Origin: Sulfurovum sp.
GTDB lineage: Bacteria; Campylobacterota; Campylobacteria; Campylobacterales; Sulfurovaceae
Reading direction: 5' to 3'
DNA: 64,000 bases
NCBI GenBank assembly: GCA_002733215.1
Contig: NVUY01000002.1
Span: 2,264 to 66,263, forward strand
The translations under genes and the position numbers were made by a program. This document shows, one piece after another, positions 28,466 to 29,175 of the stretch; within the stretch, counting starts at the first letter, position 1; each line of letters starts with the position of its first letter. The notes under the pieces are model-generated. The model was not told the DNA's origin and made no database searches. It saw only the letters and a program-made list of their open reading frames with translations.

Positions 28466-29175
28466 GTAGAACTACCCTCAACTAAAAATATTTAGTTGTA
28501 GATAGAACCCTCACAGATCCGTACGTGCGGATTTCCCGCATACGGCTCTTCAAGATCTTATTCAGCCTAAAAGGTGCTCTTAGGCTAATTCTTAATTGTC
28601 GATTCAAAAAGAGCATTTAGCTCTTCTATTTATTACCATTTATGGTGTCTCTGCGGATACCTATAGTTATCATAATTAAGATGAAAATCTTGCTGTTCCC
28701 TTCGCTCATCTCGCATTACCGATTATCTTCACTACTATGAAACAGTCTGACTACCTTAAGAGAAATAATACAAGTTCTTGAATTTGTCGTTCTTGAAATA
28801 GTAATTTGATACGTAACATATCAACCTCTCAAGGTTCTCCCAAGTTCCGCACGTTTACTGTATTGACATACTATGCTCTTGGACTCCGGTGGGCTGAAGT
28901 GATTTTCAAGTTTTACAACTAAAACCTTTTCAGTGTTGTCTTCGCGTCAATATGAATAGCTCGACCCCACAATCTCAAATATTTATCGAAGCTCTATCGC
29001 TTAAAGGAATTATCTCTCCTGACGGTCTATCAACTCTCTGCCTACGCTTCACATACTTCGTTACCTGATATGTGCAAGGCTCGATACTAGGCTCTTATCT
29101 GAAAGACTACCCAGGCAAGTCTAAACATTTTGAAATGTCGCACCTGCTAGTAAACACCGATTTATCTTGGCGCAC
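28466..29175 (-). mobile_element. ORF-less group II intron (DI to DVI), 710 nt
   Basis: 5' GTGCGCCAAGATAAATCGGTGTTTACTAGCAGGTGCGAC; internal CGTGCGGAACTTGGGAGAACC and AAGGTAGTCAGACTG...GTAATGCGAGATGAGCGAAGGGAACAG; DV GAGCCGTATGCGGGAAATCCGCACGTACGGATC (28516-28548) with AGC triad; DVI stem CTATCTACAACTAAA-tatt-TTTAGTTGAGGGTAG then ...TTCTAC 3' end. Confidence 0.85.

Follow-up and report, generated by a model that had tools for sequence, protein, structure and literature searches.

The window, a 64-kb stretch of DNA from Sulfurovum sp., carries on its minus strand (28461-29175) a 715-nt group II intron without a reverse transcriptase (RT), which splits the gene of a 76-aa predicted membrane protein immediately after its ATG. 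What brings such an intron to a start codon, and which protein could act on it there? The host gene, the start-codon position, and the adjacent upstream promoter were not seen in a preliminary description of this locus.

An ORF-less intron and its RT-encoding relative

A minus-strand ORF-less intron, complete from domain I (DI) to DVI, had been described, and the Rfam search proposed with that description agrees with it. The DI model RF02005 (group-II-D1D4-6; E 1.6e-23) and the DV-DVI model RF00029 (Intron_gpII; E 1.7e-7) both match above their gathering thresholds of 49 and 40 bits, and only the RT frame has been lost (Table 1). All the sequence blocks quoted previously, including the GTGCGCC start, were found on the minus strand. 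The RF02005 match covers a domain I-IV core behind a 5' end of the GUGYG type, and the RF00029 match includes the DV catalytic AGC triad, the tetraloop, and the 2-nt bulge. The DV-DVI fold is better than those of 200 of 200 shuffles, and a single bulged A was found in the 3' strand of DVI. Large deletions of the core, raised earlier as a possibility, were not seen in DI-DIII, whose alignment to three RT-encoding relatives shows no large gaps. Compensatory changes that keep the pairing are present in 37 of 111 predicted pairs, in an alignment of only four sequences. By the Rfam matches, the DV-DVI fold, the gap-poor DI-DIII alignment, and the compensatory pairs, the core is complete.

The 3' end, previously placed at ...TTCTAC (28466), in fact lies 5 nt further, at ...TTCTACTCGAT (28461), and three lines of evidence concur on this. 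Every family copy diverges exactly there, and the DVI bulged A, which had been noted before and is confirmed by the fold, then lies at -7, as is usual for group II introns. In addition, an intron-free orthologue (L126 in genome G703) reads ATGGGAAAAATAGATGAA, which is exactly ATG plus GGAAAAATAGATGAA. The window locus reads ..TAGACTaaaagtATG^intron^GGAAAAATAGATGAA (the caret marks a junction), and the orthologous locus reads TTGACA..TACACTcaatgtATGGGAAAAATAGATGAA; at the level of sequence comparison, ATGGGAAAAATAGATGAA proves the ATG^GG boundaries of the intron. DIV was said to contain only hairpins and no RT. The two small hairpins are real, and there is no RT frame or any other ORF of at least 60 aa in the ORF list for the intron, but a degenerate frame of the intron-encoded protein (IEP) persists for its first 27 codons.

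Table 1. Positions of the intron, its parts, and the split host gene in the window
Feature	Positions	Strand	Evidence
ORF-less group II intron, full extent, GTGCGCC...CTACTCGAT	28461..29175	-	Rfam, family 3' ends, empty site in L126
Domain I core, RF02005	28874..29124	-	88.9 bits
Domains V and VI, RF00029	28461..28550	-	52.7 bits; fold z -5.2
DVI bulged adenosine, predicted branch point, 7 nt from 3' end	28467	-	Minimum-energy and centroid folds
EBS1 CAUAUU, ID3 terminal loop positions 5-10	28949..28954	-	Alignment with three RT-encoding relatives
IEP reading-frame remnant MRDERREQQDFHLNYDN..., closed by TAA	28633..28716	-	Aligns with MREERREQQSFHLDYDN of C43 protein
Remaining DIV, two hairpins at site of ~1.25-kb RT-frame loss	28553..28632	-	715 versus 1967 nt; fold z -4.7
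3' exon, rest of 76-aa predicted membrane protein, ATG^GGAAAAATAGAT...	28233..28460	-	76% identical uninterrupted orthologue in G703
IBS1 AGTATG in 5' exon, ending in start codon ATG (29176-29178)	29176..29181	-	Complementary to EBS1
-10 box TAGACT, 6 nt before ATG	29185..29190	-	Sequence; TACACT or TATAAT in orthologues
-35 box TTGACA, 17 bp from -10 box	29208..29213	-	Sequence; TTGACA in several orthologues too
Uninterrupted upstream paralogue of host gene, near-identical promoter TTGACATTCACTCTTTTTTCTGATAGACT	29497..29724	-	ORF list, orthologue comparison

The genome assembly (2.65 Mb in 47 contigs, 85% complete) contains one match to PF00078 (RVT_1), inside a 1967-nt intron on contig C43 (542-2508), and thus the RT-bearing relative that had been suggested as a search target exists in the genome. 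The RNA of the C43 intron shares 82% identity with the window intron at positions 1 to 597 and 85% at positions 604 to 715, and the 3' flank of C43 is chimeric or masked. The C43 IEP has 466 aa and matches the NCBIfam group II RT/maturase model; in Pfam, it matches RVT_1 only, and no endonuclease (HNH) domain was found. The window intron, with no RT frame inside and a related RT-encoding intron in the same genome, has the makeup of ORF-less introns served by an IEP in trans, which supports the earlier statement that splicing or mobility would need a protein in trans. The product of the sole PF00078 gene, the C43 protein, is its likely trans-acting partner, and we infer that this protein could splice the window intron.

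The host gene belongs to a gene pair in tandem duplication (28179-29760, minus strand), in which a ~76-aa membrane protein gene is followed by one for a ~25- to 30-aa hydrophobic peptide (MELLIGLTVLAV... and MTLAAASIILIG...). The promoters of the two pairs are nearly identical, and the second copy is the one that holds the intron.

Start codons and promoters at the junctions of the intron family

Copies of the resident form were gathered by searching the genome with the intron, which yielded ten 5' ends and ten 3' ends. Nearly all of them lie at contig ends, where a repeat that collapses in short-read assembly would be expected to break, and pre-insertion sites were matched to these broken copies by comparison of the flanks. 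All ten 5' junctions read ..AT^GTGTGCC, and all ten 3' ends read ..CTACTCGAT^G (..CTCGAT^G). An ATG is re-formed at both junctions: the terminal AT of the 5' exon meets the initial G of the intron, and the terminal AT of the intron meets the initial G of the 3' exon. At 9 of the 10 3' junctions, the rebuilt ATG opens a gene; judged by reading their sequences, these genes are presumably a mraY/wecA-like transferase gene, dnaG, ribA, ybeY, ugpQ, truD, bpt (twice), and cinA. The tenth 3' junction (L010, on contig C40 of the same assembly, G000) leads into a 21-codon frame, with the next gene starting 34 nt further, which could mean that the true target is the promoter plus start site rather than the start codon. 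Two 5' ends (L019 on C17 and L020 on C45) are joined to the middle of unrelated genes after ~95 nt, the length at which other contigs stop, and these joins are probably assembly misjoins.

The 5' flanks share a second feature. A perfect TATAAT ends 8 to 9 nt before the insertion in nine of the ten resident flanks, and the tenth has TAAACT. Over the 16 junctions from three genomes, a match of at least 5/6 to TATAAT is present at the 8- to 9-nt spacing in 13, and at spacings from 10 to 39 nt never in more than 3. TATAAT is so placed in 2 of the 51 long ORFs of the window; at a background rate taken as 6%, estimated from this single 64-kb window, the chance of finding it in nine of ten flanks is ~7e-11. 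A genome-wide pattern search found 75 occurrences of TATAATN6ATG versus 42 of the reversed pattern. The empty sites in intron-free genomes of the same genus (for example, TAAACTtcgagcATG for ybeY and TATAATcgcgattATG for bpt) show the same arrangement: those of ybeY, bpt, dnaG, ribA, and truD match the 5' flanks on C44, C15, C47, C23, and C20, respectively, and have a -10 box 6 to 7 nt before the ATG. Judged from these orthologues, the combination of promoter and ATG is older than the introns. At a spacing of 6 to 7 nt, transcription should start at or beside the A of the ATG, that is, the mRNAs are predicted to be leaderless. The start codon alone was given up as the target, since the 5' flanks and the intron-free orthologues point to promoter plus start codon. 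At the window copy, the promoter (TTGACA-17-TAGACT) is also present, but the insertion is at ATG^G, one base later than the AT^G of the family.

In a Bacteriovoracaceae MAG from another phylum (G400), the IEP is 61% identical, and 4 of 4 3' junctions open genes at the start codon; three 5' ends carry TACAAT-N9, TATACT-N8, and TATAAG-N8 before ..CAT^, and the fourth has a weak TACGAA. The copy on contig C5 of this genome (L032) has a weak -10 box and a poor EBS1 match. Genome G505 reads TAAAAT-N9 ..GAT^GTACGCC, with a 3' end that opens a frame and a poor EBS1 match, and the 3' ends of L033 (a Sulfurimonas MAG) and L034 are also ..AT^G with open frames after them. The remaining order and phylum yielded only distant RTs, which makes the distribution patchy and suggests that the lineage has probably moved horizontally. 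A plasmid search with the intron returned only short DV matches (Rhizobium, Persicobacter, and others), and plasmid IEPs are at most 40% identical. Alignment of the IEP against viral contigs found nothing; five viral-contig matches to the exact 3'-junction pattern were rejected as chance, as none was accompanied by DV or DI.

A second, distant intron clade comprises L035, L036/L049, L037, L038, and L045, with L001 and L002 in the Sulfurovum genome itself; the IEP of L049 shows 37% identity. The 3' end of this clade, AAGGAGGGGTAGAAATGTCTACTCTAC, holds a Shine-Dalgarno sequence and an ATG within DVI, and in five distinct cases, including flgI, this ATG shares its frame with the gene that follows. 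The 5' junction of L049 is GGGGAGCAATAAATGA^GTGTGCC, and L002 lies inside an IS transposase gene, not in frame.

Target recognition and the fate of the insertions

EBS1 is the element of group II introns that normally varies. At positions 5 to 10 of the ID3 loop, it is AUGAUU in C43, AUGACU in L032, and AUGAGG in L064, and the AUGA conserved in these three relatives fits a fixed ..YAT target, to which it is predicted to pair. The ten resident sites have a pyrimidine at -3 in all cases and T at -4 in eight. The one-base shift of the window insertion to ATG^GG is explained by the change of its EBS1 to CAUAUU, which pairs with AGUAUG at 6 of 6 positions, including one G-U. Pairing of EBS2 with an IBS2 in the -10 box, inspected by eye for three loop types, was not convincing: for none of the loops AGAUAA, GCACAU, and GAACGA do the flanks hold a full complement where one would be expected. 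Weak EBS2 pairing or the protein may recognize the -10 box, or the box may act indirectly, through a need for single-stranded DNA.

We consider it probable (about 75%) that these copies represent a lineage of endonuclease-minus introns whose insertion target is a start codon with a -10 box 6 to 7 nt upstream, and the window element would be an ORF-deleted member of it. The target genes would have a sigma-70 -10 box and yield leaderless mRNA. The resident RT-encoding form would reverse-splice between the T and the G of the ATG, with EBS1 AUGA.. paired to the ..YAT that precedes the cut and the first 3' base supplied by the exon G. The native promoter could then transcribe the inserted intron, and the gene would keep an ATG even in unspliced RNA. 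A resident insertion may thus be nearly harmless without splicing, because the ATG at the 3' junction stays in frame in the unspliced RNA. It is doubtful that RNA made from the native promoter is spliced, since a transcript starting at the ATG would have a 5' exon of 2 to 3 nt, too short for the EBS1-IBS1 pairing; read-through RNA could splice. The window copy has lost ~1.25 kb of the RT frame, carries the changed EBS1, and sits one base later; its host gene should be silent unless the intron is spliced, with the C43 protein acting in trans.

How the promoter is recognized allows several explanations. One speculative idea, which we hold to be possible but doubtful, is that RNA polymerase open complexes offer the endonuclease-lacking RNP a single-stranded non-template strand to attack, which would constitute a fourth target type. 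In leaderless genes, IBS1 and the AT^G are exactly what the transcription bubble (about -11 to +2/+3) would lay bare, and the -10 box would be required through the sigma factor, not through base pairing. Ordinary homing to a degenerate site, with the -10 box serving as an IBS2 paired with EBS2, IBS1 as the last bases up to AT, and the promoter function incidental, would suit the conventional IBS1 pairing and the resident EBS2-like loop AGAUAA(U), whose AUAAU pairs with ATAAT with one A-A mismatch. It is unlikely, given that the insertion is 8 nt from the -10 box at some sites and 9 nt at others with IBS1 fixed, that the L032 and L064 loops (GCACAU and GAACGA) lack a complement at the right place in their own flanks, and that the window copy combines the resident loop with an upstream TAGACT. 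The pattern might also arise if insertion took place wherever IBS1 (NTYAT^G) matches and only ATG-rebuilding insertions at start codons persisted in natural populations. So short an IBS1 is common, and the rebuilt ATG plausibly renders such insertions harmless; intergenic insertions should persist too, yet nine of ten resident and all four G400 3' junctions open genes, and the start codons of leadered genes would be expected as well, but nine of ten sites have the perfect TATAAT at one spacing. We therefore regard such survivorship as distinctly unlikely.

For the window copy itself, it is quite possible, at somewhat less than even odds, that it is a dead relic that neither splices nor moves, with a host gene that is silenced or started at an in-frame TTG. 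Its RT frame is deleted, it diverges by 18% from the resident intron, and the ATG rebuilt at its 3' junction is out of frame in unspliced RNA (ATG GAA AAA TAG), so that the membrane protein gene should need splicing, use the TTG, or be silent. This TTG lies upstream, within DVI, and opens an ORF at 28233-28481 in the ORF list. Against a dead relic, the catalytic domains are intact, all six EBS1-IBS1 pairs are retained, and the downstream frame has stayed open, with 76% identity to its orthologue; the open conserved frame and the intact EBS1-IBS1 pairing mildly favour a functional window intron.

Relation to known introns and other features of the window

ORF-less introns served by a partner in trans have been described before (Mohr et al. 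2010, PMC2882425; PMC4424553), and the window element, taken as an ORF-less intron alone, is one more case of this rare form. The new aspect is the target preference for start codons behind promoters: start codons are occupied by ten or more copies in this genome and by four in the genome from the other phylum, mostly with a promoter directly upstream. In the open-licence papers covered, no description of start-codon or promoter targeting by group II introns was found. A review of bacterial group II introns (Zimmerly and Semper 2015, PMC4424553) gives three target types, namely homing sites, terminators, and attC, to which the start codons of leaderless genes would add a fourth.

As in the TeI3 introns of Thermosynechococcus elongatus (PMC2882425), the IEP frame has been lost, the catalytic core has been kept, and RT-encoding relatives are present in the genome; unlike TeI3, the window intron's family is directed, in more than one phylum, to the start codons of cellular genes that have a promoter next to them. 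With class C (IIC) introns, the family shares an endonuclease-minus IEP, the lack of a convincing EBS2-IBS2 pairing, and insertion at a functional DNA motif that recurs across many unrelated genes instead of at a single homing site. IIC introns insert at terminators or attC stem-loops (PMC4424553), whereas the motif here is a -10 box followed by ATG, with no terminator or attC stem-loop before the insertion in the 5' flanks, and the RNA matches D1D4-6. C.te.I1 of Clostridium tetani (PMC3919590) is likewise an ORF-less intron near frames with annotated start codons inside D5/6, but it represents one alternative-splicing locus in a genome without an IEP, with no dispersal over start codons. The RmInt1 IEP (PMC8914252) also lacks an endonuclease, and RmInt1 requires a single-stranded DNA target; unlike the window family, it homes to a single IS sequence and makes use of DNA at the replication fork. 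If confirmed, the start-codon preference would mean that an intron can colonise housekeeping genes at little cost by rebuilding the start codon, would offer a way to map leaderless promoters, and would raise the question of whether a retroelement can enter via the transcription bubble. The window copy, with its changed EBS1 and one-base shift, is a natural test of target specificity.

Other features of the window include two c-di-GMP-I riboswitches. One, on the plus strand (16973-17047; 54.5 bits), lies directly before a PAS-domain-like ORF (17016-17504), and the other, on the minus strand (53110-53194; 51.6 bits), precedes the gene of a rhodanese-like secreted protein (52407-53024). In addition, three neighbouring Uma2 (PF05685) genes are located at 25816-28029, of which the one at 27781-28029 is truncated at the N terminus.
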